This document shows, piece after piece, positions 1-61,500 of a stretch of 64,000 nt of DNA. The position numbers were made by a program, and so were the translations under genes. Within the stretch, counting starts at the first letter, position 1. Every line of letters begins with the position of its first letter. A model generated the notes under the pieces. That model was not told the origin of the DNA, searched no databases, and saw nothing but the letters and a program-made list of their open reading frames with translations. Source of the DNA: a virus; IMG/VR virus record IMGVR_UViG_3300036791_001907, positions 62,001 through 126,000 of that record; one strand, 5' to 3'.

Positions 1-207
1 CGGTGCCGGTTCCTGGAACACGGTTGTTTTTCCGAGCAGTATCAGCACCCGCTCGTCGGCAAGCGAATCCAGGTCAATACCAGGACCGGCTGCATGGCCG
101 AAGGGGTCGTGGAGCGGGTGGTGTCTTCACGTTTCGGCCTGCTCGCCTGCCTGGAAGGCGAAAACGGCAGGGCCTGGGCCGTGAACCAATGCACGCCGGT
201 CACCTGA
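1..207 (+). CDS. C-terminal part of an unidentified protein (truncated by window edge)
   Basis: Frame 1 is open from the first base to a TGA at 205-207 and gives 68 residues ending NQCTPVT. The text has normal amino-acid composition (for example HPLVGKRIQVNTRTG and RFGLLACLEGENGRAWAV), unlike the repetitive sequence that follows, so it is real coding DNA whose start lies outside the window. The alternating hydrophobic pattern suggests a small beta-barrel or SH3-like end, but no family is recognised. A pseudoknot element starts 12 nt after its stop codon. Confidence 0.7.
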   Translation, partial: RCRFLEHGCFSEQYQHPLVGKRIQVNTRTGCMAEGVVERVVSSRFGLLACLEGENGRAWAVNQCTPVT

Positions 208-219
208 CCGGCGTCATGG

Positions 220-252
220 ACCGATGGCCGGCGGTATATCCGGCGGTGGTGG
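220..252 (+). repeat. Pseudoknot element, copy 1
   Basis: Helix 1 is ACCG (220-223) with CGGT (232-235). Helix 2 is GCCGG (227-231) with CCGGC (240-244). The loops are ATG (224-226) and ATAT (236-239), and the tail is GGTGGTGG. The two helices interleave, giving an H-type pseudoknot. It starts 12 nt after the stop of the truncated CDS and lacks the A-rich 5' flank of most copies. Confidence 0.75.
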
Positions 253-528
253 CTAGCCCTGGCGACATCAGCAATGGTCGCGCGAGCACTGCCGTGGCGC
301 GTTCAGGCAGTACAGGCGGGGTGATGCGGGCAACGGCAGGGCCGGGTCCGTCCGGCGATGTCATGCCACGGTATGGCAGCTCAGGTGAGTTCAGATCGGC
401 CATGCGCGGGCTGGCTGCGGTGACCAGAGGTGGGTCGAGCCGTGGCGAGGCAGCGTAGCCATGGAAGGGTCGGGTCGGTTGAGCTGCGGCGAGCCCAGCT
501 GACGCAGGGCTGGCCGCGGCAGCAAAGA

Positions 529-561
529 ACCGATGGCCAGCGGTATATCTGGCGGTGACGG
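529..561 (+). repeat. Pseudoknot element, copy 2
   Basis: Helix 1 ACCG/CGGT (529-532, 541-544), helix 2 GCCAG/CTGGC (536-540, 549-553), loops ATG and ATAT, tail GGTGACGG. The upstream flank GCAGCAAAGA is the A-rich block shared by eight copies. Confidence 0.8.
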
Positions 562-754
562 GAAGCATCGGCAGCGACGGAATGGCAGGGCAAGTTGCGT
601 CTTGTTCCGGCCAGCCAAGTCATGGCTGCGTCGTATTGCCGATCACTACGAGGACGATCCGCCTGCGCGGTGGATCGGAACACGTACTGAACACCCTACA
701 GTTGCAGGGCCGCGGGACGCGCGGCCCGTCTCACTGGCGACAAAGGATGATCCA

Positions 755-1666
755 ATGCCAGCCAAGAAAGGTCCGGCCAAGGGGACAGTCCCGGTCAACA
801 TCCCCCAGCCACAGATCCTCGACTTCGGGATCGGACTCATCGGCGTGACGCCGACGATCTCGAACGCATTCCCGCAGAAGATCCGTGAGAAGCTCGTGGC
901 TGATCACATGCACATGCCTGAGGCCCTCATCCCCCACGAGGCCAAGGACCCGTGCGCCAACTTCAGCGCGTGCATCCACTACGTCAAGTCCAAGGACGGT
1001 GGGGTCAACTTCGCCATGCCCGGCTCCTCGTTCAAGGGGGCCATGGTCGCGGCGTGCCGGATGACCAACAAGAAGTTGGACATGGCCAGTGCCAAGCAGT
1101 TCTTCCAGGTGATCCCGTTCCGGGTCCAGATGTACGGCGACGAGCCGATCATGTGCGAGCACCGGGTCCGCAACGACAACGGCGGCGTCGACATCCGGCA
1201 CCGGGCCATGTACTGCCGTTGGTCGGTGATCCTGCCGATCCGCTACCACGCGGGGTCGATCTCCAAGGAGTCCCTGATCTACCTGGCGGAGCTGGCCGGC
1301 TTCGGCTGTGGCATCGGTGACTGGCGGATCGCGGCGCCCAAGAGCCCCAACGGGCAGATGGGCGCCTTCCGCGTGGCCCGCGAGGGCGAGATCGTCGGCC
1401 CGGCGTACTCCAAGTGGTGCGCCAAGAACCCGTTCGACTGGGACGAGTTCGAGCAGTACGGCATCGTCCCGCCCGCGCGGGTCGAGTACTACCGCAAGGC
1501 CGCCGAGATGGTTCGCGGCCTGCCGCCCGAGCAGCGGGGCACGCCCAAGAAGGGCAAGAGCCGGAAGGCTGTGCCCACCGCTGCGGCCGCCGCGGCGATC
1601 ATCAACGGCGTCCAGCCCGTCGACGGCCTTGAGCCGCCCGATGACGGCTACGTGCCGCAGCAGTAA
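755..1666 (+). CDS. Conserved phage protein, paralogue of the 47266 gene
   Basis: 303 residues. The ATG at 755 follows AAAGGA at a sensible distance; the longer frame upstream runs through a pseudoknot copy and is not used. The middle of the protein (AELAGFGCGIGDWR followed by GQMGAFRV) matches a pattern I associate with a widespread, functionally unassigned phage family: an alpha-helix, then AGFGxGxGxWRP, then GxFGxFxV. The C-terminus is a Lys/Ala-rich tail. The gene at 47266-47808 has the same arrangement (EVAGKFRGIS then GEYGRFTVVSV), so the two look like distant paralogues. It lies 75 bp upstream of the 1742 gene, with which it probably forms a pair. Function unknown; a single-strand-annealing or RAMP-like role is only a guess. 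Confidence 0.85.
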   Translation: MPAKKGPAKGTVPVNIPQPQILDFGIGLIGVTPTISNAFPQKIREKLVADHMHMPEALIPHEAKDPCANFSACIHYVKSKDGGVNFAMPGSSFKGAMVAACRMTNKKLDMASAKQFFQVIPFRVQMYGDEPIMCEHRVRNDNGGVDIRHRAMYCRWSVILPIRYHAGSISKESLIYLAELAGFGCGIGDWRIAAPKSPNGQMGAFRVAREGEIVGPAYSKWCAKNPFDWDEFEQYGIVPPARVEYYRKAAEMVRGLPPEQRGTPKKGKSRKAVPTAAAAAAIINGVQPVDGLEPPDDGYVPQQ

Positions 1667-1741
1667 CCACTTCGTGCAGGAGGACGACCGGGGGCCAGGA
1701 TGGCCCCATCTTTCCCGCAACCCTAGCAGCAAGGATCGAAC

Positions 1742-2275
1742 ATGCCATCGGGTGTCAAGAAGAAGTCATCAGCGCCGGCGCCGGCGCTCAAGTACGAGTT
1801 CCGGGCCTGCTTCCGGAGCCCGCTCGATCCCAACGTCGTCGCGGCGCGGCTCGAATGGCTCAGAACCAGACTGAGCCGGGACCCGGAGGGTCAGGACGTC
1901 CTGGAAGACGCCCGGCCCGTCGGCTCGCCGTTGCATGATCACTTCGACTGGAATGACTACGAGGCCGGCGAGAAGCATCGGCTCGGCCAGGCCACGGATC
2001 TGATCAACGCCATCCGGGTCACCGTTTACGTGGTGGCGAAGCCCAAGGGGCGGGTCAAGCAGCTGCTGCCGGCCTATGTCCGGCTGAAGAACCCCGCCGG
2101 TCGGCGCACCTTCGTCGCAGCGACCATCGCGACGGCAACGCCCCGGCGCGCAGAGACGCTGGCGGAGACCATCATTCGGTATGCACACATGGCGACTCGC
2201 GATCGCGCGCTCGGGCTCACCGAGCTGGATCCGCTGTTCGACGTGATTGATAAGTTGAAGAAGCGGTACGGCTGA
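1742..2275 (+). CDS. Conserved phage protein, partner of the 755 gene
   Basis: 177 residues from the ATG at 1742. The segment SPLHDHFDWNDYEAGEKHR, followed by LGQATDLINAIRV, resembles a phage family often found beside proteins like the 755 product. The C-terminal half is helical and charged (ETIIRYAHMATRDRALG). The ribosome binding site is weak (AGCAAGGATCGAAC). Pseudoknot copy 3 begins 8 nt after its stop. Function not known. Confidence 0.8.
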   Translation: MPSGVKKKSSAPAPALKYEFRACFRSPLDPNVVAARLEWLRTRLSRDPEGQDVLEDARPVGSPLHDHFDWNDYEAGEKHRLGQATDLINAIRVTVYVVAKPKGRVKQLLPAYVRLKNPAGRRTFVAATIATATPRRAETLAETIIRYAHMATRDRALGLTELDPLFDVIDKLKKRYG

Positions 2276-2283
2276 TGCAGCAG

Positions 2284-2316
2284 ACCGACGGTCGGCGGTA
2301 TATCCGGTGGTGACGG
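2284..2316 (+). repeat. Pseudoknot element, copy 3
   Basis: Helix 1 ACCG/CGGT (2284-2287, 2296-2299). Helix 2 GTCGG/CCGGT (2291-2295, 2304-2308) holds with two G-U wobbles. First loop ACG rather than ATG, second loop ATAT, tail GGTGACGG. It starts 8 nt after the stop of the 1742 gene and lacks the A-rich flank. Confidence 0.75.
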
Positions 2317-2678
2317 GAAGGCGGCAGAGATCCGGCTTCGTTCGCTCCGGCGTGCGACGCTGGGGCCCGGCAGCCAAGGACCGGCGTGGCAAGCCGCGTT
2401 CTGGCTTGCAGCGTCTAGGTTCGGCCGCAGCGGAGGGCCAGGCCGGGGTAGTGTTCGGCTCCGCAGGTCGAGGCTTGTCCCGGTTCGGCAGCTCGGGTGC
2501 GTCGTGCTGCGAATAGGCATCGTGAGGCTGGCTTCGGCAGCGTCAGGCAGCGGCGGAGGGCCTTGTCCGGGTGTGGCATTCGGCGGCTTGGCGTGCCCAG
2601 GTGAGCCGAGGCCGTACAGGTTAGGCGGGATGCGCCCGGCACTGCAATGGCCTGCTCCGGCTGGCCGGGCAGTAAAGA

Positions 2679-2711
2679 ACCGACGGCCAGCGGTATATCT
2701 GGCGGTGACGG
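2679..2711 (+). repeat. Pseudoknot element, copy 4
   Basis: Helix 1 ACCG/CGGT, helix 2 GCCAG/CTGGC (2686-2690, 2699-2703), loops ACG and ATAT, tail GGTGACGG. The upstream flank is GCAGTAAAGA. Confidence 0.8.
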
Positions 2712-3050
2712 CAGTTCAGGAGCGGATGGGACGGCCCAGGCAGGGCTTGTTACGGCCCGCCGGGACTCGTTTCGGCGCCGCCGTATTGGTCTGGCTTCAC
2801 ATGCCGTGGCGACGTGAGCCGCGGTCAGCACAGGAGCGGCAGCGATGGTTCGTCTAGTCTACACAAGGCAGGCCCAGGCAGCCGGAGGTATGCCCAGCAG
2901 GGCCATGGCCGTACAGGACAGCAGGGGTAGGTAAAGCACGGGCAAGCCGTGCCGGGTCCCGGCAGCGAAGCCGAGTTCCGGTGTGGTGCGCCGTGGTGGC
3001 GTCCGTCACGGCGGGCCATGTCGCGGCTAGTCAAGTCGCGGCAGCAAAAA

Positions 3051-3083
3051 ACCTATGGCCACAGGTATATGTGGTGGTGATGG
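3051..3083 (+). repeat. Pseudoknot element, copy 5
   Basis: Helix 1 has changed on both sides to ACCT/AGGT (3051-3054, 3063-3066), a compensatory swap relative to ACCG/CGGT. Helix 2 GCCAC/GTGGT (3058-3062, 3071-3075) has one terminal G-U. Tail GGTGATGG, upstream flank GCAGCAAAAA. Confidence 0.8.
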
Positions 3084-3420
3084 CAGGCAGGGCAAGCCCT
3101 GTCACGTCGCGGTGCGGCATGTCCCGGCAGCGTAGGCTTGGTCAGATACGCGAAGTCCTGGTACGCCGCGGCCGGCACAGGTTAGCTGCGGCCAGGCAGC
3201 ATAGGCTCGTCCCAGCAAAGGCAGGTCGCGACAGGGCTGGCCGCGGTTCGGCAGCATTGGCTGGGAAAGCCCAGCCCAGGTTCGCCGCGCCACGCAGGGC
3301 TTCGGCGGGGCGGGGCAGTCAAGGATCGGCATGGCGTGTCTAGCCACGGTCCGTCATGGCGAGTCGTGCTGCGGCAGCGGCGGAGAGCCGAGCCGTGGTG
3401 GCAACTGGTGGGCCAAGCTA

Positions 3421-3500
3421 CGTTGTGGCGACGCCGGATAGGTATGGCATGCCCCGGACTGCCATGGCGAGTCATGGCGGGCCATGGCGAGCCGTGGCCG
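3421..3500 (+). repeat. Quasi-tandem 10-bp repeat within the spacer
   Basis: From 3461 to 3500 four 10-mers stand head to tail: GCCATGGCGA, GTCATGGCGG, GCCATGGCGA, GCCGTGGCCG. The same phase continues upstream in more diverged form (GGTATGGCAT at 3441, ACGCCGGATA at 3431, CGTTGTGGCG at 3421). It is the clearest view of the short-word texture that fills the spacers between pseudoknots. Confidence 0.6.
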
Positions 3501-3634
3501 CGAAGGAGTGGCCGCCCGGCGTTCGTCCGGCGTTGGTTGGTCTAGGTAGGGACGCGTCAGCCGGGGCAGTCATGGTTTGGCGCGGCTTGCCTGGTCGTGC
3601 CACGGCAAGCGATGCCAGGGATGGGCAGCAAAAA

Positions 3635-3667
3635 ACCCATGGTCACGGGTATATGTGACGGTGATGG
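3635..3667 (+). repeat. Pseudoknot element, copy 6
   Basis: Helix 1 ACCC/GGGT (3635-3638, 3647-3650), helix 2 GTCAC/GTGAC (3642-3646, 3655-3659). Both helices differ from copy 2 by paired changes and both are fully Watson-Crick. Tail GGTGATGG, upstream flank GCAGCAAAAA. Confidence 0.82.
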
Positions 3668-3936
3668 TGCGGCAGCTCGGCCCTGCCATGATGGGGCATG
3701 TCGAGCCGCGGCCAGCAGCGCAATGGTAGCGCTGGTGTTCCCAAGCTTGGCCTGGGTAAGTCAAGCGCTGGCCAGCCGGGGCAGCGAAGGTGAGGCTAGA
3801 TCTATCGAGCCTAGCGCTGTCATGTGCTGGTGAGCCGGGGTGAGCCTCGGTACGGTATCGCCGCTCTGGCGGCGTTAGTCGTGACATCGAAAGCTGTGGT
3901 ATGCCGAGTCGAGGTCAGACAGCAGAGGAGGTGTGA

Positions 3937-4152
3937 ATGATCGGACCCAAGTGCGAGTGCCGAAAGCCGACCTTTCCGTCTGAAGACGAACAGTCCTGGC
4001 TGTGCATGAACCCGGAGTGTGCGGGCTTCCAGCAGGTCTACTGCGAGTTGACGCCGGCAGACCTGGCGCTCATCGCCAAGCTGAAGGCGCTGGCCAATGG
4101 CCACTGGCAGCGTGTTGCAAAAACCCGAAAACTCCGCGGTACCAGGAAGTGA
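3937..4152 (+). CDS. Small zinc-ribbon protein
   Basis: 71 residues from the ATG at 3937, preceded by a strong GAGGAGG. Cysteines at CECRK near the N-terminus and CMNPEC about 15 residues later form a compact zinc-binding module; the rest is a basic helix (HWQRVAKTRKLRGTRK). It is an island of normal coding sequence between pseudoknot copies 6 and 7. No family assigned; DNA or RNA binding is plausible from the basic tail. Confidence 0.75.
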   Translation: MIGPKCECRKPTFPSEDEQSWLCMNPECAGFQQVYCELTPADLALIAKLKALANGHWQRVAKTRKLRGTRK

Positions 4153-4232
4153 TGAACGGTTCGGCAGCCGCGGTGAGGTGCGACCGGGTTCGTCCAGCGA
4201 TGGCGGACCTTGGTGTGGCATCACAGCAGTAA

Positions 4233-4265
4233 ACCTATGGCCACAGGTATAAGTGGCGGTGATGG
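4233..4265 (+). repeat. Pseudoknot element, copy 7
   Basis: Helix 1 ACCT/AGGT (4233-4236, 4245-4248), helix 2 GCCAC/GTGGC (4240-4244, 4253-4257). The second loop is ATAA, the only copy not ATAT. Tail GGTGATGG, upstream flank GCAGTAA. Confidence 0.8.
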
Positions 4266-4736
4266 AATGGCAGCATCGGACGGGCTCGGACGGGCCATGA
4301 CGGGCCGGGTTAGCTGTGCCGCGTCAAGGCAGTACTGGCTAGGTTTTTCAGGGCATGCTCTGGTGCGCCTGGTCACGGCCGTCTAGGTGAGGAGTCGCGT
4401 GCAGCGGCTTGCCACGGCCAGTTCTGTCGAGGCAAGCCGAGGCCGTCAAGGTGCGGCCAGGCAAGTAATGCAGGGATCGGGCTGGCTATGGTCCGGCCGC
4501 AATGGCAAGGTTAGTTGCGGCTGGTACCGGCGGGGCGAGCCCTGCTGTGGTATGGCCGTAACGGTAGTCCGCGGAGCGCCATGGACGGCCCCGCTCAGGC
4601 TGGCCAAGGTCGGCCGAGGCAGTCTTGCAAGGGATCGTCCAGCCTGGTTGTGCCATGGCCAGGCAGGGGAGCAGAGGTGTGTTCTGGCACCCTGTGATCT
4701 GGCCGGCCAAGTCACGGCAAGGCCGGGCAGCAGTAA

Positions 4737-4769
4737 ACCCATGGTCGCGGGTATATGCGACGGTGATGG
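4737..4769 (+). repeat. Pseudoknot element, copy 8
   Basis: Helix 1 ACCC/GGGT (4737-4740, 4749-4752), helix 2 GTCGC/GCGAC (4744-4748, 4757-4761), all Watson-Crick. Tail GGTGATGG, upstream flank GCAGTAA. Confidence 0.82.
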
Positions 4770-5132
4770 AAGGGCAGCCGTGGACAGCAGGGTTATGATG
4801 CGCTGCGCAAGGGCTGGTCCTGGCAGGCCAAGGATCGGCAGGAGAGCACAGGTCCGGTCTGCATAGTAGTGGCGAGACCTACCATGTCGAGCCGGGTTTC
4901 GGCAGCAATGCGAAGGTGAGCCTTGCCGGGGCGGCCGTAGCTGTGGCAGTGTAGTCGAGTCGTGGCAAGCCTAGTCCGGCATAGTTGGGCTCTGGTCCGG
5001 TCCGGCAGCAGAAGTGTGTCTTGGTCCGCCGCGTCGCGACGCGGTGGGATCCGGCAGTAATGGTGCGGCTAGTCATGGCGCCGCGAGCCGCGCTGTGTCA
5101 TGTCATGATCTGGCTAGGCCGGACAGCAAAAA

Positions 5133-5165
5133 ACCGATGGCCAGCGGTATATCTGGTGGTGACGG
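5133..5165 (+). repeat. Pseudoknot element, copy 9
   Basis: Helix 1 ACCG/CGGT, helix 2 GCCAG/CTGGT (5140-5144, 5153-5157) with a terminal G-U. Tail GGTGACGG, upstream flank ACAGCAAAAA. Confidence 0.8.
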
Positions 5166-5484
5166 GAAGCATCGGCAGCGACGGCAAGCCGTGGTGTGGT
5201 ATGCCCGGCTCCGCCAAGCTACGGCAGCAGTGGGCAGGCTGGGCAGGTTTTGCTCCGTCGTGTCGAGTGTTGGTAAGGCAGCCATGGTGTGGCCCGGCGC
5301 GTCATGTCGCGTCGTCCTTTGCGCCGGCATGGCGTGGCCGCTGTGGCAAGACACCCTTAGTCATGATGGGGCCGGGCGGGCACCTGTTTGCTGCGCCGAG
5401 TCGTGGCAGTGACGCAGTGGTGTGTTGTGCCCCGGCCTGCCCCGGCGAGTCCTGTCATCGTGGGCAGCGCTGAGGCAGCAAAAA

Positions 5485-5517
5485 ACCCATGGCCACGGGT
5501 ATATGTGGCGGTGATGG
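5485..5517 (+). repeat. Pseudoknot element, copy 10
   Basis: Helix 1 ACCC/GGGT (5485-5488, 5497-5500), helix 2 GCCAC/GTGGC (5492-5496, 5505-5509). Tail GGTGATGG, upstream flank GCAGCAAAAA. Last copy before the hairpin that closes the tract. Confidence 0.82.
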
Positions 5518-5838
5518 ACAGCCCCGCGCTGGCCGGCTTTGGTCAGCCATGCAGAGCTGCGGCAGCAGAGGTGAGGCGTGACCAGCACAGCCGGGGTACG
5601 GTTCGCTGTGCCCTGGTTAGGCAGGTGGGTCATGGTTCGCGATGGCGCGTTGAGCCTTGCCATGGTGAGGCAGCAATGGATCGGCGGGCTGTGGCACGGC
5701 AAGCCTGGGTCGGATCCGCTGCGGCAGCGGAGGTGCGGAACGCCATGGACCGGCAGGGTGGGCCAGGGTGGGCCGAGCCACGGCAGCACGGGTGTGCCGT
5801 GTCCGGCCTAGTCAAGGACGGATGAGCCGCGCACTGTG

Positions 5839-5872
5839 GAAGGGGGCGTGGTCTTCGGGCCACGCCCCCTCC
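5839..5872. terminator. Strong hairpin, probable terminator between convergent units
   Basis: AGGGGGCGTGG (5841-5851) pairs with CCACGCCCCCT (5860-5870), and the loop closes as a C-UUCG-G tetraloop, giving about 13 bp. It separates the plus-strand pseudoknot tract from the minus-strand genes at 5873-7251 and could stop transcription both ways. Neither side has a long T-run, so efficiency is uncertain. Confidence 0.7.
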
Positions 5873-6079
5873 TTATACCTTCACGCCGGCGAGCAACTCG
5901 AAGACCCCGAATGCCTTACACAAAAAGATGATCAGAACCAGGGCCAGCAGACCATAAGCGAGGTGAATACACCACCGCGGGTAAGCCAGCCTCGATCCCA
6001 GCTGCTGATCGGCGAAGGCGACCAGCGCGCAGGCGATGATGAACGCCAGAACGGCCAGCAAAACGCCGAGCAAACTCAC
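5873..6079 (-). CDS. Small two-helix membrane protein
   Basis: 68 residues. Two hydrophobic segments (LLGVLLAVLAFIIACALVAF and YGLLALVLIIFLCKAFGVFEL) flank a short polar loop (ADQQLGSRLAYPR). The start overlaps the stop of the 6076-7251 gene, so the two are co-translated. Size and topology would fit a class II holin, but there is no lysin next to it, so this is only a possibility. Confidence 0.7.
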   Translation of the reverse strand: MSLLGVLLAVLAFIIACALVAFADQQLGSRLAYPRWCIHLAYGLLALVLIIFLCKAFGVFELLAGVKV

Positions 6080-16147: not shown

Positions 16148-19870
<3,723 letters not shown>

Positions 19871-23313: not shown

Positions 23314-23681
23314 TGTGATCCGATGGCCACCGGAATATGTGGCGGTGACGGCAGCGCAGGAGAGGACAGCCGTGGCAAGCCGAGCCCGCTCGCGGCAGGG
23401 CAGGCCAAGGCGGGCCTTGGCAGCAAAGGCGGGGCGTGGACGGACGCGTTATGCTAGGATGAGCCTCGCGCAGGCAGGACCGCCGAGGATGGTTGAGGCT
23501 TGATCTATCAGGGCACGCCCAGCCAAGTCAGGGCAGGACGCCAGTCGTACTGGTCGGGACCCTACCGCCGGACCCGGCGGTGGGCCTGACACCCGGGGAT
23601 CCTGGGACACCTCTTGCCCCCAGGATCCCAGGTGGGCCGGTCTCTGGAACGAGACGTCGTTCCGGGGGCCGGTCCGTTTTC
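23314..23681 (+). other. Intergenic region with pseudoknot copy 11 and several hairpins
   Basis: Starts with the isolated eleventh pseudoknot, continues with the same GC-rich short-word text as the 1-5.8 kb tract, includes an orphan GCTAGGATG (23453-23461), and ends with three strong hairpins: ACCGCCG/CGGCGGT near 23572, GGGATCCTGGG/CCCAGGATCCC near 23595-23634, and GGAACGA/TCGTTCC near 23646-23663, followed by TTTTCTT. The last ones are well placed as terminators between convergent genes. No coding potential is seen. Confidence 0.55.
23319..23351 (+). repeat. Pseudoknot element, copy 11 (isolated)
   Basis: Helix 1 is TCCG/CGGA (23319-23322, 23331-23334): the first base pair is T-A instead of A-T, changed on both sides. 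Helix 2 GCCAC/GTGGC (23326-23330, 23339-23343), loops ATG and ATAT, tail GGTGACGG. It lies 18 kb from the other copies, 5 nt after a stop codon. Confidence 0.82.
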
Positions 23682-29066: not shown

Positions 29067-29357
29067 ATGGAGATCGGCGGCTACGACACGATCTACGAGA
29101 CAGCCGAGCCCACGCGGCTGCTGCTGGCCATCATGATCGCCCTGGGCTGGTCGGCGCCGGTCACCGAGTGGATCAATGACAGGGAGCTGTTCTTCTATCG
29201 CGACCAGGCGGCCAGGGACGCCTGGGATCGCGACGTCGGGCCCGACGAGACCATGGTCTACTTCATCGTCGATCCCGGCAGGCTCACCGTCGTCAGCGAC
29301 GAGGTGCTCACGGCCGCGATCCGGGTGCGGTTCCTGTCGTTTCTCGTCCCGTCGTGA
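29067..29357 (+). CDS. Small hypothetical protein
   Basis: 96 residues after AAAGG. A hydrophobic helix RLLLAIMIALGWSAPV near the N-terminus and a C-terminal strand pair (MVYFIVDPGRLTVVSDEVL). It might be membrane-associated, but the helix is short. Function unknown. Confidence 0.6.
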   Translation: MEIGGYDTIYETAEPTRLLLAIMIALGWSAPVTEWINDRELFFYRDQAARDAWDRDVGPDETMVYFIVDPGRLTVVSDEVLTAAIRVRFLSFLVPS

Positions 29358-29386
29358 AAACCTGTCATTCAGCACAGGAGGGTTCC

Positions 29387-31195
29387 ATGCCAGCGCTCAA
29401 AGGCTTCGAGGTTCAGACTCATTCACTCGGCAAAGGCCGGGAGATCGACGTCCTCCACCATCCCGACCACAGCCTGTTTCTCTGGGTGCCGGCGCAGCAG
29501 GTCGCCGAGCACAGCAACTGGAGCCGGCGGCGCACCGGCGAACACAGCACCAGCGACATCGGCAAGGATCTCGACCCGATGTACCGGATGCGGGTGGAAG
29601 ATCCGCACAAGCTGTACTCACGGTCGCGAGTCAAGAGCACGACGCTCTTCAACGTCGAGGGCCTGATCCAGAAGACGTTCCACACGCGTAAGCAAGGTTA
29701 TCTGGAGTTCTGTCACGACTTCATCGCGCAGGTGCTGCCGGCGTACGAGGCGTTTGCCGCGCATTACGCCGAGCTGGTCTTGATCTGGCGCGACGCGATC
29801 GATGGCGCCGTCACGGGACAGTACCTCCGCGAGGACAGCTTCACGCAGGCGCTGGCGCTCTGCGCCGACCGCTGCGCGGTCCGGCCCGCTGCCAGGCCGA
29901 TCCTGATCCTCGGTACGCTGACCCTCGACGGGGTGCTCTCCAACTGGGCGAAGACCACGCTTGATCCCATCCCGGTCGCCAGCGCGGCGACGGTGCTCAC
30001 GTTCCCGGTGGCCCAGCTGCATGCAGCCAACAAACGCGCGCAGGCGTACTGGGACCAGCATTCCGACGGTCCGGCCATGACCTTTCATCTGGCACTCGCC
30101 TATCCGGACGGCGCGATCTCCCTGCCCGACGGCACACTGGTCGCCGGACCGAGCGTGGCGGCGGCCTCGGAGCCGCCACCCGAGACCGAACCGGCCGTCG
30201 ATCGCCCTCTGCCCGGGCTGCCTGCGGGCTTCAACGGGCATCCGTGCCCGACTTACGGATCGTACGAAGATCCTGAGTGGATCGGACTTTACGTCTGCGA
30301 CGCCCTGGGGATCGTCGACCATCACGATGCCCTGAGCCGAGTTCCCGCCGAGGAGAAGGGTAGGGTTATCGCCCCCACCCAAGTGTCCTCCCGTGGCCGC
30401 AAGACCCAGAGCTACGTCACGATCAAGGAGGCAGGCCTCTACCGTTTGATCAGCGAGAGCCACAAACCTGAGGCCGAAGCATTCAAGAACTGGCTTTATC
30501 GCGAGGTCTTGCCGGCGATCCGCCGCTACGGTTACTACGCGCAGCCAGGCGCGCAGCCTGGTCCCACGGCCGAGGAACTGCGCGCGGCCCTCCGCACGAT
30601 CGTCAGGGAGGAGCTGGCGGCGGCCGTCGGCAGGATCATCCCGACGCAGGTCGGCGCGGCCCAGGTGGCGGCGCTGGTCGAGCCCCTGGTCGCGGCCGCC
30701 GAGCGGCTGGCCGAGAGCAATGTCATTCACCAGCAACAGCTCACGCTCATGGGCCAGACGATCGAGCTGATCCTGCCCAGCAAGGAGCTGTTCCTGCCGG
30801 CCAAGGACTACGTCGAGATGGACGGTGTGGCCGATGCCCTGAAACGCGCGCCCCGGCTGGCGGCGCCGGCGCTCGAGATGGACCATTGCCCCGACTACGG
30901 CAAGGCGTCCCTGTTCATGAAGCGGCTCTGCCGCGCCGAGAACAAGAAGGTCGCCGCCAACGCCGTCGCGCGGATCATCGCCAGGGACGCCGGCCAGCCG
31001 CTGCCGCCCCTGTACATCCCCGAATTCCGGATGCGGAAGATCGAGCGCGAGCACGCCAAGGTGCTCATGTTCAACCCGGCCTGCTGGGCCTTCTGCAAGC
31101 AGACGTTCCTGCCTGCGGATACTCCGACCCTGCTCTTCCCCGGCCCGCGGGCCGAGGCGGCGCCGGGTGCTCGCGACCAGGCCGGTGAGGTCTGA
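29387..31195 (+). CDS. BRO-N domain antirepressor-like protein
   Basis: 602 residues from ATG 29387 with GGAGGG upstream. Residues about 300-385 form a BRO-N domain: WIGLYVCDALGIVDHHDALS, IAPTQVSSRGRKTQSYVTI, KEAGLYRLISESHKPEAEAF, KNWLYREVLPAIRRYGYY. This domain binds DNA in antirepressors of phages and large DNA viruses. The N-terminal 280 residues are unassigned and rich in helices; the C-terminal part has a repetitive Ala/Val/Glu helix (EELAAAVGRIIPTQVGAAQV) likely for oligomerisation. Next to a second antirepressor, it suggests a lysogeny or superinfection switch. Confidence 0.8.
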   Translation: MPALKGFEVQTHSLGKGREIDVLHHPDHSLFLWVPAQQVAEHSNWSRRRTGEHSTSDIGKDLDPMYRMRVEDPHKLYSRSRVKSTTLFNVEGLIQKTFHTRKQGYLEFCHDFIAQVLPAYEAFAAHYAELVLIWRDAIDGAVTGQYLREDSFTQALALCADRCAVRPAARPILILGTLTLDGVLSNWAKTTLDPIPVASAATVLTFPVAQLHAANKRAQAYWDQHSDGPAMTFHLALAYPDGAISLPDGTLVAGPSVAAASEPPPETEPAVDRPLPGLPAGFNGHPCPTYGSYEDPEWIGLYVCDALGIVDHHDALSRVPAEEKGRVIAPTQVSSRGRKTQSYVTIKEAGLYRLISESHKPEAEAFKNWLYREVLPAIRRYGYYAQPGAQPGPTAEELRAALRTIVREELAAAVGRIIPTQVGAAQVAALVEPLVAAAERLAESNVIHQQQLTLMGQTIELILPSKELFLPAKDYVEMDGVADALKRAPRLAAPALEMDHCPDYGKASLFMKRLCRAENKKVAANAVARIIARDAGQPLPPLYIPEFRMRKIEREHAKVLMFNPACWAFCKQTFLPADTPTLLFPGPRAEAAPGARDQAGEV

Positions 31196-31210
31196 TCCGG
31201 GGAAGATCCC

Positions 31211-32002
31211 ATGACCAACTCGATGTTCGATCTTGTTGAGATCCCGTTCTACGGTGACTCGATCGAGGCTGCCCGCAACACCCAGGACGGCAGCTTCTAC
31301 GTCTCGATCCGCCGGGTCTGCGACAACCTCGGCATTGGTTTCAGTGCCCAGCTCGAGAAGCTCAAGGGCTACCACTGGGCAACTGTGGCGCTGATCGACA
31401 TGGTTGCGCAAGATGAGAAACGGCGGGAACTTGCGGTCTTGCCGCTGGCCCAGGTGCCGGGCTGGCTGACCCACATCAACCCTGACAAGGTCGGCGGTGG
31501 GGATGAGCTGGTCGAGAAGCTCAAACGGTACCAGGTCGAGGCCGTCGACGTGCTCTACAGGCACTTCATCGCAGCGCAGTCGGCGCCGCAGGACCCGATC
31601 GTGGCCTTGTCGCAGTCGGTGATCGCGACGCGGCAGGCCCAGCTGGCGATCGAGAGCCGCGTTGACGGCATCCAGGAGCAAGTCGGCAACATGGTCGAGC
31701 TGCAACGGGCGGCGCTCGGCACCTTCTTCAACGTCCCCCGCGCCACGGAGCCGCCGGCGCCGCTGACGACCAGGAAGAAGATCAGCATGATCGTGCGGAG
31801 CTTCATCGCGGCCCACAGCATCAACCCCGACGGCGACGAGTACAAGGATATGTTTAATAACATCTACTGGCAGTTCAAGTACCGGTACGGCTTCGACGCT
31901 ACCGTGCGGGCCAAGAACGCCGGGATCTCCAAGCTCGAAGCGATCGAGCGGGCGGGTCTGATCGAGGAACTCTACAAGCTGGTGTCTGAGCTGTGCTCGT
32001 AG
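31211..32002 (+). CDS. P22 antirepressor-type (P22AR_N) protein
   Basis: 263 residues. The N-terminal 110 residues follow the P22AR pattern: IPFYGDSIEAARNTQDGSFY, VSIRRVCDNLGIGFSAQLEKL, LPLAQVPGWLTHINPDKV, KLKRYQVEAVDVLYRHF. In P22 such proteins inactivate the prophage repressor. The C-terminus is a separate domain (FIAAHSINPDGDEYKDMFNN) resembling the end of ORF6C-like antirepressors. Located 15 nt after the BRO-N gene, so probably one operon. Confidence 0.85.
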   Translation: MTNSMFDLVEIPFYGDSIEAARNTQDGSFYVSIRRVCDNLGIGFSAQLEKLKGYHWATVALIDMVAQDEKRRELAVLPLAQVPGWLTHINPDKVGGGDELVEKLKRYQVEAVDVLYRHFIAAQSAPQDPIVALSQSVIATRQAQLAIESRVDGIQEQVGNMVELQRAALGTFFNVPRATEPPAPLTTRKKISMIVRSFIAAHSINPDGDEYKDMFNNIYWQFKYRYGFDATVRAKNAGISKLEAIERAGLIEELYKLVSELCS

Positions 32003-53245: not shown

Positions 53246-56200
53246 ATGTCTGAACCTACCGCGGAACAACCCACGGCCTTCAAGACGATCACCCAGCTGC
53301 CACGCGAGCAGCGCTGGGAGCATTACGGCAAGAAGTTCCTGGTGCCGCTCGATCATCCGAACATCCCGCCCGCCGGTCCCGACTTCGCGCGCACCGTGCA
53401 CGATCTGATCGGCGCCAAGGTTGCGCCCAAGATGCCGCGCGATGATCTGGGCACGATCGGCGTGGACTATCTCTACCGCCATGCGCTCTACCGGCGCAAG
53501 TGGGAGCTTCAGGTCAACTTCAAGGGCCAGCTCCGGCAGGCGGAATTCCTGCCGGGCGGGCTCTGGACGTTGCCGCCCGTCTTCGACATCAAGAACAGCT
53601 CGGTGGACACCCACGATCATGAGTGGGCCGGTTACGCGCCGGTTGGTGGTCCGCGGAAGCTGGCCGCAGTCATGGTCGTCGGCAAGCATCCGGGCGCCGA
53701 GGAGCTGTTTTACAAGCAGAACTTCATCGGGCCGGCGTCGGCGGATCTGCACCGGGCACTCCGCGAGATCGGGGTGCCGCCGGAGGTGCGGCACAACTGG
53801 TACGTGACCAATGCGGTCAAGCACAACCGGCTTGATCCCACATCGGGGAACATGCAGCAGGCGTGGCTCAAGAACTGCGCGCCGCTGCTCTGGCAGGAGA
53901 TCCTCCTGGTCCGGCCCCGGTTCATCGTCTGCCTCGGTACCGAGGCGATCAAGGCCGTGCTGGGCAAGGGCTTCACGGTCACCAACATGACTGGCCGCGT
54001 GATCGAGAAGATGCTCAGAGTGCCGCCGGCCGCCGCCGGCACGCAGGCCGACTTCGAGAACCTGGACGACTATTTCGAGCACAAGATCCTGATCATGGGT
54101 CTGCCCCACCCGGCCTACATCTTTCGGGTGCCGGAGGCTTACCCTGATCTGGTCTCGGGCCTCACCAAGTTCCTCGAGCTGGTCGGCGGCGATCGGCCGC
54201 GCGACGTCGAGGAGGACCGCAAGCATGCGGCCTACCATGCCCAGTTTCCCCTGGCCAAGGCGATCGACAACATCCTCGAGAAGGCCCACCACGAATGGAA
54301 GTTTGATATCGACGGCGATCTCCCGGTCGCCTGGGACGCCGAGTGGCATGGCCGGCAGCCTGCGGATGCCGGGGCCTACCTGCGCACCATCCAGTTCGCC
54401 GTCGGGGAGAAGTACGACGAGGCACCCAAGAAGGCGACCTCCGTGGTCCTGACCGAGAAGGGCGGAGGTACGGGCTGGTTCCACTCCCGCGAGGAGGTTG
54501 CCGGCGAGCTGCGCCGTCTGGTCGAGGGCCGCCATCGCAACGACAAGATGCCGCTGGTCAGGACCCGCCATGGCGGCCACTTCTTCAAGGCCGACATCCC
54601 CTGGATCGATATGTTCCTGGGGATCAACTTCCGCCCGCTCTGGACGACCCTGCGGCCGCGGCGGGAAAAGTCGGAGGAGGAGCCGGAAGGCGAACCAAAG
54701 GTCCAGCGGTTCGACGGCGTGGAATTTCGCAAGCAGCTCGCCGCCTACAAGGAGGAGGAGCGGAAGGCCACGGATGATGACCGAGCGCCACAGTGGTCGG
54801 CACCGGATCCTGCGGACAGGTCCTTCATTCGGGGGCATGAGCCCTGGGAGCTGACCCGCTACATGGGCGGCTTCGACACCTGCTACATGGCACACGCGGT
54901 CTTCGAGGCCGCGGAGAGCTTCGGCCTGGAGTCGCTGGCGCTGCGCTGGACGACGTGCCCGCGCTGGAGCACCGACATCGAGCAGGCCAAGATCCGGATC
55001 GCCAAGGAAATGGGGATCAAGCTCCGTGATCTGATCGGCTACGGCGACATTCCCGATCACGAGATCCTGCCCTACGCCTGCTACGACGCCGACGCGACGC
55101 TTCGCCTCTTCTGGAAGTTCAACTTCGCGCGGGCGCCCCGTGAGGGGGAGGGGTTCCTCGATCACGATGTCCACCATCAGAATTCCCGTGAGGCGTTCTG
55201 GCGGACGATGCTCGCCGGGCTGGCATTCCTGGAGATGGAGGAGACCGGCGTGGCGGTCGATGTCGACCGCGGCAAGGAGCTGATCAAGGTCTTCGAGCTG
55301 GTCAAGGAGCGCCTGACCACATCGCTTCGCGACGATCTGGGCTGGCCGGCGTTCAACCCCAACTCAGCGCCCCAGGTGCGGGCGTGGCTCTTCGGCGAGG
55401 AGTACAGCGGCGCGATCGACAAGAAGACCGGCAAGGGCCGGCCGCTCATGCCGCGGAAGGACATGTCCCTCGGCAAGGTGCCCATCAAGACCACGGGCAA
55501 GCCGCCCAAGGCGTGGGAGCAGGTCCAGTACAAGGACGCCAAGCTGTATACGCCGGCCGTGGACAAGGAGGTGCTGGGGATCTACGCCTGGGAGGATCCC
55601 CGGATCAAGAAGTTGCGGGACATCCGGTATGTTCGCCAGGTGCTCCAGTCGGTGCTCCGTCCCCCCAAGGTCGGCGAGGCCGTTGTCCCTGATGGTGACG
55701 GCGGCATTGTCTACGATGAACTCGACGAGTTCGATGGCGGCTTCCTGAGTTATGTCAGCCCGCGCGACGGCCGGGTACGGAGCCGGTTCGCGCCCGTGGA
55801 GACCCGGCGCTGCTCGTCGGCCGGTCCCAACCTCCAGAACCTGGCCAAGCGCCGGGAGGATGACTACGGACGGATCCTCGGGCACTACGACGACGAGGGC
55901 AAGCTCAAGGGGGACTACCTGGACATCCTGGGCGGGCCGCTCTATCGCGACCCGATCCGCTCGATCGTGACGGCGGACCTCTGGGACGGCGTGCCCACGG
56001 TCCTGATGGAGTTCGACATCGTCTCGGCCGAGATCGCCGCCCTGGCCTGGGAGTCGGGCGATCCGCAGATGATCGCGGACGTCACCCGGGCCATGCTCGA
56101 TGAGGATGATCCCAAGTTCCTGGATATCCACGGCGCCACCGCCGTGGAGGCGTTCAAGCTCAGCTGCGCGCCGACCAAGAAGGGCCTCAAGTCGATCGGC

Positions 56201-56896
56201 AAGCCGGGCCTGCGGGTGGCCGCCAAGAACGTGCGGTTCGGCGTGCCCTACGGCCGCAGCGCCGAGGCACTGGCGCGGCAGTGCCGCGAGGAGGGTGCGG
56301 ACGTCTCGGTGCGGGACTGTCAGCGGCTGATCATCAACTATCACAAGCGCTACCCGCTGGCCAGCCATTTCCTGGACGCGTGCGAGGCGATCCCGGCTGC
56401 CGACAAACCGTTCATGGTCGGGGCATTCGGCGGGATGCGCCGGTTCCAGCGAGTCGACGACCGGTCGGTCCTGGCCGACCAGGGTCGCTCGGCCAAGAAC
56501 TACCCCATTCAGAACCTGGTGGCCGACGCCATCCTCCTGGGCATGTACAACCTGCTCCAGGTCCGCGCCGAGATGGGGCTCGAGAACGCGTTTCAGATCG
56601 TGCTCCAGATCCACGACGCCATCATGCTGCGGGTCAAGGTCCCGTACATCGCGACCGTCCGCGACGAGGTCATTCCGGTGGCGCTGAAGGAGCGGGTGCC
56701 GATCATGCCACGAACCCTCAAGGGCACTCCGTTCTCTGAGGTGAAGAAGGAAGAGCCGGAGCGCGGCTATCTCCATCTGGACAAACCCTACCGGTTCAAG
56801 GTGGACTGTTCAGTGTTCCTGAACTGGGGACAGGCGATCGATCCCGTGCACGGTCGGTCGCTGGGGATCCCCGAACAGTATCTCGGCAGCAAGTGA
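53246..56896 (+). CDS. Family A DNA polymerase fused to an N-terminal uracil-DNA glycosylase
   Basis: 1216 residues. N-terminal part (about 137-310): VMVVGKHPGAEEL, YVTNAVKHNR, PRFIVCLGTEAIKAVLG and IMGLPHPAYIFR follow family 4 uracil-DNA glycosylases. Next a 3'-5' exonuclease-like domain with VAWDAEWHG near 362 (DxE) and CYDADATLRLFW. The polymerase has motif A LMEFDIVSAEIAAL near 920, motif B AAKNVRFGVPYGRSAEAL near 992 and motif C QIHDAIML near 1122. Motif C has Ala after His-Asp where family A has Glu. Uracil excision built into the replicase would let it read and remove uracil at the fork. Confidence 0.9.
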   Translation: MSEPTAEQPTAFKTITQLPREQRWEHYGKKFLVPLDHPNIPPAGPDFARTVHDLIGAKVAPKMPRDDLGTIGVDYLYRHALYRRKWELQVNFKGQLRQAEFLPGGLWTLPPVFDIKNSSVDTHDHEWAGYAPVGGPRKLAAVMVVGKHPGAEELFYKQNFIGPASADLHRALREIGVPPEVRHNWYVTNAVKHNRLDPTSGNMQQAWLKNCAPLLWQEILLVRPRFIVCLGTEAIKAVLGKGFTVTNMTGRVIEKMLRVPPAAAGTQADFENLDDYFEHKILIMGLPHPAYIFRVPEAYPDLVSGLTKFLELVGGDRPRDVEEDRKHAAYHAQFPLAKAIDNILEKAHHEWKFDIDGDLPVAWDAEWHGRQPADAGAYLRTIQFAVGEKYDEAPKKATSVVLTEKGGGTGWFHSREEVAGELRRLVEGRHRNDKMPLVRTRHGGHFFKADIPWIDMFLGINFRPLWTTLRPRREKSEEEPEGEPKVQRFDGVEFRKQLAAYKEEERKATDDDRAPQWSAPDPADRSFIRGHEPWELTRYMGGFDTCYMAHAVFEAAESFGLESLALRWTTCPRWSTDIEQAKIRIAKEMGIKLRDLIGYGDIPDHEILPYACYDADATLRLFWKFNFARAPREGEGFLDHDVHHQNSREAFWRTMLAGLAFLEMEETGVAVDVDRGKELIKVFELVKERLTTSLRDDLGWPAFNPNSAPQVRAWLFGEEYSGAIDKKTGKGRPLMPRKDMSLGKVPIKTTGKPPKAWEQVQYKDAKLYTPAVDKEVLGIYAWEDPRIKKLRDIRYVRQVLQSVLRPPKVGEAVVPDGDGGIVYDELDEFDGGFLSYVSPRDGRVRSRFAPVETRRCSSAGPNLQNLAKRREDDYGRILGHYDDEGKLKGDYLDILGGPLYRDPIRSIVTADLWDGVPTVLMEFDIVSAEIAALAWESGDPQMIADVTRAMLDEDDPKFLDIHGATAVEAFKLSCAPTKKGLKSIGKPGLRVAAKNVRFGVPYGRSAEALARQCREEGADVSVRDCQRLIINYHKRYPLASHFLDACEAIPAADKPFMVGAFGGMRRFQRVDDRSVLADQGRSAKNYPIQNLVADAILLGMYNLLQVRAEMGLENAFQIVLQIHDAIMLRVKVPYIATVRDEVIPVALKERVPIMPRTLKGTPFSEVKKEEPERGYLHLDKPYRFKVDCSVFLNWGQAIDPVHGRSLGIPEQYLGSK

Positions 56897-59946: not shown

Positions 59947-61500
59947 ATGACCAGGAAGGGGTTCCGGAAGGGACCCAGCAAGGGTGCCGCGGCGAGTAAC
60001 GGTCAACCCACAGCGAAACCGGCGGCGAAACCTCGTACCAGGAAAGCAGCGGGCGGCAAGCCCAAGTTCAAGCCGCCGCCGAAGGTCAAGGCCGGTGACG
60101 CGGCCCGCGCCGGTTTGAAGATCTATCACGAGAGCGTCAAGGAGCTCGGCCACGAGGTGGCCTCGGACGCGGCCTGGACAGCACAGGTCGCGGTGCACCA
60201 GCGGGATAACGACCGCAAGGATCTGATCGTGGCGGGCGAGGCCCGCAAGCTGGTGGTGGGGATCCCGCTGCCCAGCCTGGCGCTCATGCACCTGTTCCAG
60301 TCGAACGTGCTGCCGGTGGGCCGGATCTACCAGATCACCGGCGAGGAGGGCTCCTCCAAGTCCAGCTTTCTTGCGGAGATGATGCGCTGGGTGCTGATCT
60401 ACTCCGGCTACGCGATGGTCTTCGAGGTCGAGGGCAAGGACATCGCCGAGCTGCGCGAGGCGATCTGGGAGTACAACTCCACCTGGCTCAATGTCCGCAG
60501 CCTGATCGATCCCTGCGACTCGCTGAACCACTGGATGCGGAACCTGGGCAAGGAGATCGGCGAGGTCACTCGCTACAACGAGGGCTACGGCGGCTCACCC
60601 GGTATTGGCTGGCGCAACCCCTACATCTTCGGGGTCGACGCCTTCACGTCGGCGGGGGCCGACGAGACGATCGTCAAGATCGGCAAGGAGGGCGCTCCGG
60701 GCCGGAGCCACCCGATCGAGGCCAACCTGATCGCCCAGTACAGCCGCACCTGGACCGACAAGCTCCGCGGCACCTCGATCATCGTTGCCGGCACCAACCA
60801 CCTGAAGCCCAAGCGGGATGACCAGGGCAATGAGATCTCGCACTCGCCGGGCGGCAAGGCGCTGAAGTTCATGGAGTCGGTCGAGATCCAGATGCGGCGG
60901 CTGGGCAAGTACAAGGAGGCCGCCAAGTCCGGGGTCTGGCTCTGGATCGAGACGATGAAGAGTTCGATCGGCGAGCGGCTGAAGTCGGTGCGGGTCGCCA
61001 TGGTCTGGGACTGGCGGTATCACGACGATGTCGCCGACTGGCGGCAGCATGCCTACTTCGACTGGCACACGGCGACCCTGGATACGCTGCTCCAGTACGA
61101 GGCCGACAAGGACTCGAAGAAGACCTGGAACGCGATCAACGACATCGTCGATATCAACGCGGTGGCGCAGGGGCGCTACTGGTCTTACCGGCTGGGGATC
61201 CCTAAAGAAAAGCCGGTGCGGCGTCATGAATTCGGCCGGGCCCTGGACTACGATCGCGGGGTTTGCCGCGAGCTGTTCCCGATCCTGGGTATCACCCGGC
61301 GGCCGGTGTTCCGGCCGGGCGAACGGCTCGTGGACACCATCGTGATGGCCTCGGCGAAGACCGATGCCGAGCTGCCCGACTACTATGCCGAGTACGACGC
61401 GAACCTGAATGACTTCGCCGATGTCACGGAGAACCTGCATCGGGGCCGGACGGCGCGGCCCAAGGACGCGCCGGTCGCGGAGGAAGACGACGACGCATGA
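59947..61500 (+). CDS. RecA/UvsX-like recombinase
   Basis: 517 residues from ATG 59947 (GGGGAGG upstream). A basic disordered N-terminus (about 50 residues of Lys/Pro/Ala) precedes the core. Walker A ITGEEGSSKSSFLAE near residue 130, Walker B-like IFGVDAFTSAGAD, GTSIIVAGTNHLKPK, and HSPGGKALKFMESVEIQMRR, the counterpart of the L2-adjacent GGxALKF of RecA. Acidic C-terminus (VAEEDDDA). It should coat ssDNA and pair homologous strands for recombination-dependent replication. Its stop overlaps the next start as ATGA. Confidence 0.85.
   Translation: MTRKGFRKGPSKGAAASNGQPTAKPAAKPRTRKAAGGKPKFKPPPKVKAGDAARAGLKIYHESVKELGHEVASDAAWTAQVAVHQRDNDRKDLIVAGEARKLVVGIPLPSLALMHLFQSNVLPVGRIYQITGEEGSSKSSFLAEMMRWVLIYSGYAMVFEVEGKDIAELREAIWEYNSTWLNVRSLIDPCDSLNHWMRNLGKEIGEVTRYNEGYGGSPGIGWRNPYIFGVDAFTSAGADETIVKIGKEGAPGRSHPIEANLIAQYSRTWTDKLRGTSIIVAGTNHLKPKRDDQGNEISHSPGGKALKFMESVEIQMRRLGKYKEAAKSGVWLWIETMKSSIGERLKSVRVAMVWDWRYHDDVADWRQHAYFDWHTATLDTLLQYEADKDSKKTWNAINDIVDINAVAQGRYWSYRLGIPKEKPVRRHEFGRALDYDRGVCRELFPILGITRRPVFRPGERLVDTIVMASAKTDAELPDYYAEYDANLNDFADVTENLHRGRTARPKDAPVAEEDDDA

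Follow-up and report, generated by a model that had tools for sequence, protein, structure and literature searches.

A probable phage-borne VIPR locus with repeated, covarying pseudoknots and pentamer guide tracts

VIPR systems, relatives of CRISPR published in 2026, are an already known class (bioRxiv 2026, PMC13142463, doi 10.64898/2026.04.26.720920). According to that preprint, Vipr is a phage RAMP protein, its guide RNAs (vrRNAs), of 9-16 tandem pentamers, alternate the triplet GGY ('or a related consensus') with two variable letters (NN), and the NN letters specify double-stranded DNA with one base skipped at each step (PMC13142463). Formation of a ribonucleoprotein, the skip rule, and repression have been published for other VIPR members (PMC13142463), and the same three activities would be expected, by analogy, of the locus described here. 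This locus lies in a stretch of 64,000 nucleotides of viral DNA (hereafter, the window), which covers positions 62001-126000 of a 161,481-base IMG/VR virus record (IMGVR_UViG_3300036791_001907; G000). An initial annotation of the window had reported an array of pseudoknots of an RNA class that it could not name. The pseudoknots are borne out by the present analysis but a class of their own is not: since each of them borders a tract of five-nucleotide G-B-Y-N-N units in a genome that carries a vipr gene, they are best regarded as belonging to a locus that encodes VIPR guide RNAs. The initial annotation had overlooked the five-nucleotide code, the partner protein, and the guides between the elements. 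Taken together, the seemingly noncoding DNA, the pseudoknots, and the vipr gene almost certainly constitute a phage-borne VIPR locus, which probably silences rival phages.

All ten 33-nt elements that had been described on the + strand are present exactly where they were placed (Table 1), and the proposed helix 1 (4 bp), helix 2 (5 bp), loops A(T/C)G and ATAT/ATAA, and tail GGTGRYGG were confirmed. The copy 11 of the initial annotation corresponds to window position 23319 (TCCG-ATG-GCCAC-CGGA-ATAT-GTGGC), and a twelfth copy was found at record position 61290, 710 nt upstream of the window. In the alignment of these 12 copies, standard base pairs occupy 108 of 108 helix cells and five of the nine pairs change on both sides, the number that had been claimed. 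The covariation score is 0.512, compared with 0.201 +/- 0.033 for shuffled alignments (none of 500 shuffles scored as high), and it drops to 0.066 or less once the helix partners are slid by 1-3 columns, which supports the earlier proposal of selection on an RNA structure, here a pseudoknot of the + strand RNA. Four cells hold wobble pairs (G-U or U-G) when read on the + strand but A-C mismatches when read on the - strand, indicating that the RNA that folds is that of the + strand. The elements have conserved flanks, GCAGYAAANA and GGTGRYGG. Rfam covariance models gave no match in the window at the gathering score and only tRNAs in ten related loci, and a search for the pseudoknot pattern elsewhere in IMG/VR and in GTDB genomes returned 1 viral and 16 genome matches, none of them fully paired. 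Similarly, no repeated pseudoknot with at least three copies sharing loops was detected in 86 other VIPR loci. The stretches at 559-579 and 5163-5183, which lie 3' of the pseudoknots at 529 and 5133, are near-identical (CGGGAAGCATCGGCAGCGACGG), suggesting module duplication.

The DNA between the pseudoknots follows a strict five-nucleotide rhythm, G-B-Y-N-N, on the + strand. Autocorrelation peaks at 5, 10, 15, 20, and 25 nt and then at 29/30, 34, 39, 44, 49, 54, and 59 nt, and a Viterbi fit resolves the tracts into pentamers of the form G-[G/C/T]-[C/T]-N-N in which position 1 is G in 90% of cases. A tetramer, mostly GGCA, breaks the pentamer series about every 9-14 pentamers in this fit. A total of 59 guide runs were parsed, most of them of 9-15 pentamers and with G at position 1 in 93%, which corresponds to approximately 60 guides in five blocks. 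Across the 161-kb record, the rhythm exceeds the threshold only at 61.2-61.8, 62.2-62.6, 64.3-68.0, and 85.3-85.7 kb, and these regions coincide with the pseudoknot sites. The fixed triplet is GGY in 33%, GCY in 23%, and GTY in 14% of cases. Pairing of the pentamer triplets into 3-bp stems was also considered (folding z-scores within the tracts were only about -1.2) and was dropped because canonical arrays are nearly all GGC, which is unable to pair in that way.

The gene at 755-1666 encodes the putative Vipr protein. Its family profile matches the PDB entry 36pp ('SUSP1 Vipr protein') with an E-value of 3.8e-10, and the window protein alone matches 36pp with an E-value of 7e-4 over the G-loop GIGDWR, part of a conserved glycine-rich loop (GFGCGIGDWR). 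An AlphaFold (AF2) model built with 43 aligned sequences reached a predicted local distance difference test (pLDDT) score of 89; with a single sequence the score was only 33. The best 50 PDB matches of this model in Foldseek are all CRISPR proteins (E-values from 5e-5), nearly all of them Cas7-like subunits of Csm or type VII complexes, and the predicted fold matches that of Csm3/Cas7. A tree built from 49 Viprs places the protein of the window by itself between clades, at the end of a long branch; support for this position is weak. The family, phrog_4652, is present in Mycobacterium phages, Gordonia phages, and one cyanophage, and homologues of the 177-aa product of the neighbouring gene (1742-2275), a putative accessory (vap) protein, are encoded next to vipr in phages of Mycobacterium and Gordonia and in Cy-LDV1. 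In Mycobacterium phage Gorge, vipr and vap are apparently one coding sequence (gp54; L074 1860-3077) following a one-base frameshift relative to sister phages.

The linkage between gene and array extends to other phages. A scan of IMG/VR with the Vipr family alignment yielded 155 relatives, of which 80 loci were kept; the array adjoins the vipr gene in 80 of 80. A GGCNN array was likewise found beside the phrog_4652 gene in all 11 named phages that were inspected. Relatives of the record itself were sought by terminase, which returned three long contigs (G001, G002, and G003). G001 and G002 (83% TerL identity) lack both genes (755-1666 and 1742-2275) along with the array and the pseudoknot. 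In G003, a period-5 array lies directly upstream of a gene resembling 755-1666; it comprises about six tandem VIPR units of about 116 nt (G003:116330-117000, minus strand), each with a GAGCC-ATCAC-GGCTC hairpin, a structured element unlike the pseudoknot of the window. Two annotated 'hypothetical proteins', Donkeykong gp48 (L066 7444-7830; VTFFSGRRGSARHGKG...) and Pipp gp43 (L067 4129-4398; MAGMARLGLTRPG...), are translated VIPR guide arrays and as such are spurious genes.

Whether the guides fit targets under the skip rule was examined in a set of about 1.7 Mb. The vipr stretch 854-883 reads ACG ATC TCG AAC GCA TTC CCG CAG AAG ATC, and all 10 of its amino acids agree with those decoded from guide 574; the sole difference between the two lies in the Ser codon (AG/TC). 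None of 1000 randomised guide sets fitted vipr and vap as well as guide 574. The Ser codon difference suggests that the real target of guide 574 would be the vipr gene of a close relative, and self-regulation of its own vipr is possible. The preprint also reports guides directed at other VIPR systems (PMC13142463). A search of IMG/VR with the guide 574 pattern, both exact and with the Ser letters freed, returned no match, and the other window guides gave no target above chance in the record, its three relatives, and the 80 loci. Guide 379 (379-448), which agrees at 20 of 28 positions with the antisense of PGSSFKG, a conserved motif of vipr, was rejected, being out of wobble phase and not significant after correction. 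Among guides of other loci, one from L126 (7576) fits the vipr of L100 at 20 of 22 positions, decoding TYVxSSLSRxS, and one from L100 (7171) fits the vipr of L106 at 25 of 28, both with a skip of one base; judged from these alignments, the two guides appear to reflect vipr against vipr warfare between rival contigs.

Several of the results weigh against the assignment or parts of it. The fixed triplet is far less constrained than GGY: its second position is G in 42% of cases, compared with 61-94% (median 84%) in the 80 other loci. A convincing target was obtained for just one of the 59 guides in the 1.7 Mb searched, and over this set the match of guide 574 has an E-value of about 0.02 before correction for 59 guides. 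In other loci the excess of skip-1 matches is small (3 of 259, versus 0, 0, and 1 for other skips). The vap assignment is based on position and on homology among phages, not on the vap sequences of the preprint, and the preprint puts the structured element 3' of the guide (PMC13142463).

If the locus operates as a VIPR system, the RAMP protein would coat guide RNAs made of repeated G-B-Y-N-N units, the three fixed bases of each pentamer docking onto one Vipr subunit and the two variable bases facing the target. The NN letters, with one target base skipped per step, would then select DNA, usually the coding sequence of a competing phage, and target binding would block transcription. With published VIPR systems the locus shares a RAMP protein homologous to SUSP1 Vipr, GNY/NN repeats of 5 nt at about 9-15 per guide, a small gene adjoining vipr, a phage host, and a vipr-fitting guide with a 1-nt skip at wobble positions; it differs in the pseudoknot on the 5' side, the relaxed triplet, the approximately 60 guides in five blocks, and a C-terminal extension of about 90 aa on Vipr. 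The arrays of Cheoctovirus (Donkeykong) and Jujuvirus (Pipp) have the same Vipr and accessory families and the same GGCA step between units, but are nearly strict GGCNN, span a few hundred nt, and have no repeated pseudoknot. Class 1 CRISPR Cas7/Csm3 shares the fold and the binding of RNA in regular steps, but has a 6-nt step, contiguous spacers, CRISPR repeats, and a cas operon, none of which is found at this locus: only vipr and one small partner gene are present, with no cas operon, and no CRISPR repeats with contiguous spacers occur in window positions 1-6000. A series of H-type pseudoknots also characterizes type III toxin-antitoxin RNA (ToxI); however, the elements here are 300-600 nt apart rather than tandem, and no ToxN-type toxin gene was found at the locus, where the neighbours are Vipr, the vap-like protein, and a 71-aa open reading frame (ORF) with no family match.

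The placement of the pseudoknot bears on its role. A guide tract lies downstream of all 12 pseudoknots, and by periodicity none lies upstream of five of them, although a weak guide-like stretch does precede one of these five (4233). Four of the five blocks begin with the pseudoknot, which reappears at intervals of 1-7 guide units, 5' of a guide group. Four pseudoknots (61290, 220, 2284, and 23319) lie 3-12 nt downstream of the stop codon of a coding sequence (CDS) and have no guide in front of them, and none of the five blocks has a pseudoknot at its end, which is formed by a hairpin or by the ribosome-binding site of the following gene. The element is most likely a structural 5' handle, or a processing or protection element, for the vrRNA, by analogy with the pseudoknotted tail that SUSP1 vrRNAs carry; it may nucleate or cap the Vipr filament, or define vrRNA 5' ends. 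More tentatively, the locus could represent a VIPR subtype whose array of about 60 guides is partitioned not by a 3' tail or a hammerhead but by a covarying pseudoknot repeated on the 5' side, which would serve in processing, protection, or the loading of Vipr, and whose docking motif is relaxed to G-B-Y. An unlikely though serious alternative is that the locus is a VIPR locus in which each pseudoknot belongs, as a 3' tail, to the guide that precedes it, the arrangement known from SUSP1 (type II VIPR), the other guides being tail-less or having staggered, overlapping ends. The SUSP1 tail (GTAG-TTA-GTCTC-AG-CTAC-ATTAAAAT-GAGAC) is of the same H-type topology, with a 4-bp helix 1, a loop 1 of 2-3 nt, and a 5-bp helix 2, and a guide tract does precede seven of the 12 pseudoknots. 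Its loops 2 and 3 are 2-3 and 8-9 nt, however, versus 0 and 4 nt here, and it lies 3' of the guide, the feature of the SUSP1 clade, whereas here the pseudoknot precedes the guides; the four copies that follow a CDS stop and the five blocks that end without a pseudoknot also speak against a tail.

Some VIPR arrays are interspersed with hammerheads, according to the preprint (PMC13142463), and this, along with the repetition of the element between guide groups and its conserved flanks, would be compatible with a small ribozyme that, in the hammerhead's place, sets guide groups apart by cleaving itself. With just 9 bp in 33 nt and no Rfam ribozyme match at the gathering score, this role is improbable for the window element, and no known small ribozyme fits it. 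The initial annotation implied a stand-alone structured RNA family (a riboswitch, ribozyme, or similar), for which the strong covariation and the absence of an Rfam match could be cited; given that guide tracts of a single VIPR system adjoin every copy and that no pairing copy was found elsewhere in IMG/VR or GTDB genomes, this origin appears very improbable. Units of about 11 triplets would also suit regulation of the TRAP type, in which about 11 triplets, set 2 nt apart as they are here, are bound by a ring-shaped protein, and the NN letters would serve as spacers with no guide function. This possibility merits hardly any credence and was dropped because the protein proved to be a Cas7-like RAMP protein, not TRAP; moreover, the NN letters of guide 574 decode a 10-residue vipr peptide.

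Unusual features of this VIPR locus are the pseudoknot 5' of each guide group, the relaxed motif, and the size of the array, which is among the largest found in this analysis. It should be noted that the supplement of the preprint covers seven types, staggered arrays, and hammerhead-interspersed arrays (PMC13142463), and that the layout of the window may already be included there. VIPR systems have been known for months and experiments concern very few members; the locus would add a second way to place a structured element relative to guides, with the fixed triplet relaxed to G-B-Y, and it offers a direct test of the way in which arrays are divided into guides and of the strictness that the docking motif requires.

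Table 1. Features of the putative VIPR locus (coordinates refer to the window).
Feature	Position	Strand	Basis or remark
Pseudoknot copy 1	220..252	+	12 nt after CDS stop; 5' edge of guide block
Guide tract, G-B-Y-N-N units closed by tetramer GGCA	253..700	+	autocorrelation, Viterbi fit
Pseudoknot copy 2	529..561	+	alignment, covariation
Guide of 10 pentamers (guide 574)	574..623	+	NN = AC AT AG AA GC TT CC CA AA AT; decodes TISNAFPQKI
vipr-like gene, 303 aa, phrog_4652, RAMP/Cas7 fold	755..1666	+	profile, structure prediction
Guide 574 match inside vipr, NNx rule	854..883	+	18/20 nt; skipped base always at third codon position
Putative vap (accessory) gene, 177 aa, phrog_15946	1742..2275	+	adjoins vipr; homologues
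Pseudoknot copy 3	2284..2316	+	8 nt after vap-like stop codon; 5' edge of guide block
Guide tract, ~25 guide units, three pseudoknots inside	2317..3936	+	autocorrelation, Viterbi fit
Pseudoknot copy 4	2679..2711	+	alignment, covariation
Pseudoknot copy 5	3051..3083	+	alignment, covariation
Pseudoknot copy 6	3635..3667	+	alignment, covariation
Cys-rich ORF, 71 aa, between guide blocks	3937..4152	+	no family match; preceded by AGGAGGTG
Guide tract, ~25 guide units, four pseudoknots inside	4153..5830	+	autocorrelation, Viterbi fit
Pseudoknot copy 7	4233..4265	+	alignment, covariation
Pseudoknot copy 8	4737..4769	+	alignment, covariation
Pseudoknot copy 9	5133..5165	+	alignment, covariation
Pseudoknot copy 10	5485..5517	+	alignment, covariation
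G+C-rich strong hairpin, terminator-like, between convergent units	5838..5872	.	3' end of array; by sequence
Pseudoknot copy 11, distal module	23319..23351	+	3 nt after CDS stop
Short distal guide tract	23352..23480	+	record-wide rhythm scan

The hairpin at the 3' end of the array was not picked up by a terminator scan. Elsewhere in the window, a class II ribonucleotide reductase gene with an intein and an HNH endonuclease inside it is located at 16148-19870, an adjacent pair of antirepressor-type genes (Bro-N / Ant families) at 29354-31999, and a gene whose product joins DNA polymerase A to a domain of the uracil-DNA-glycosylase family (residues 140-297) at 53246-56896.

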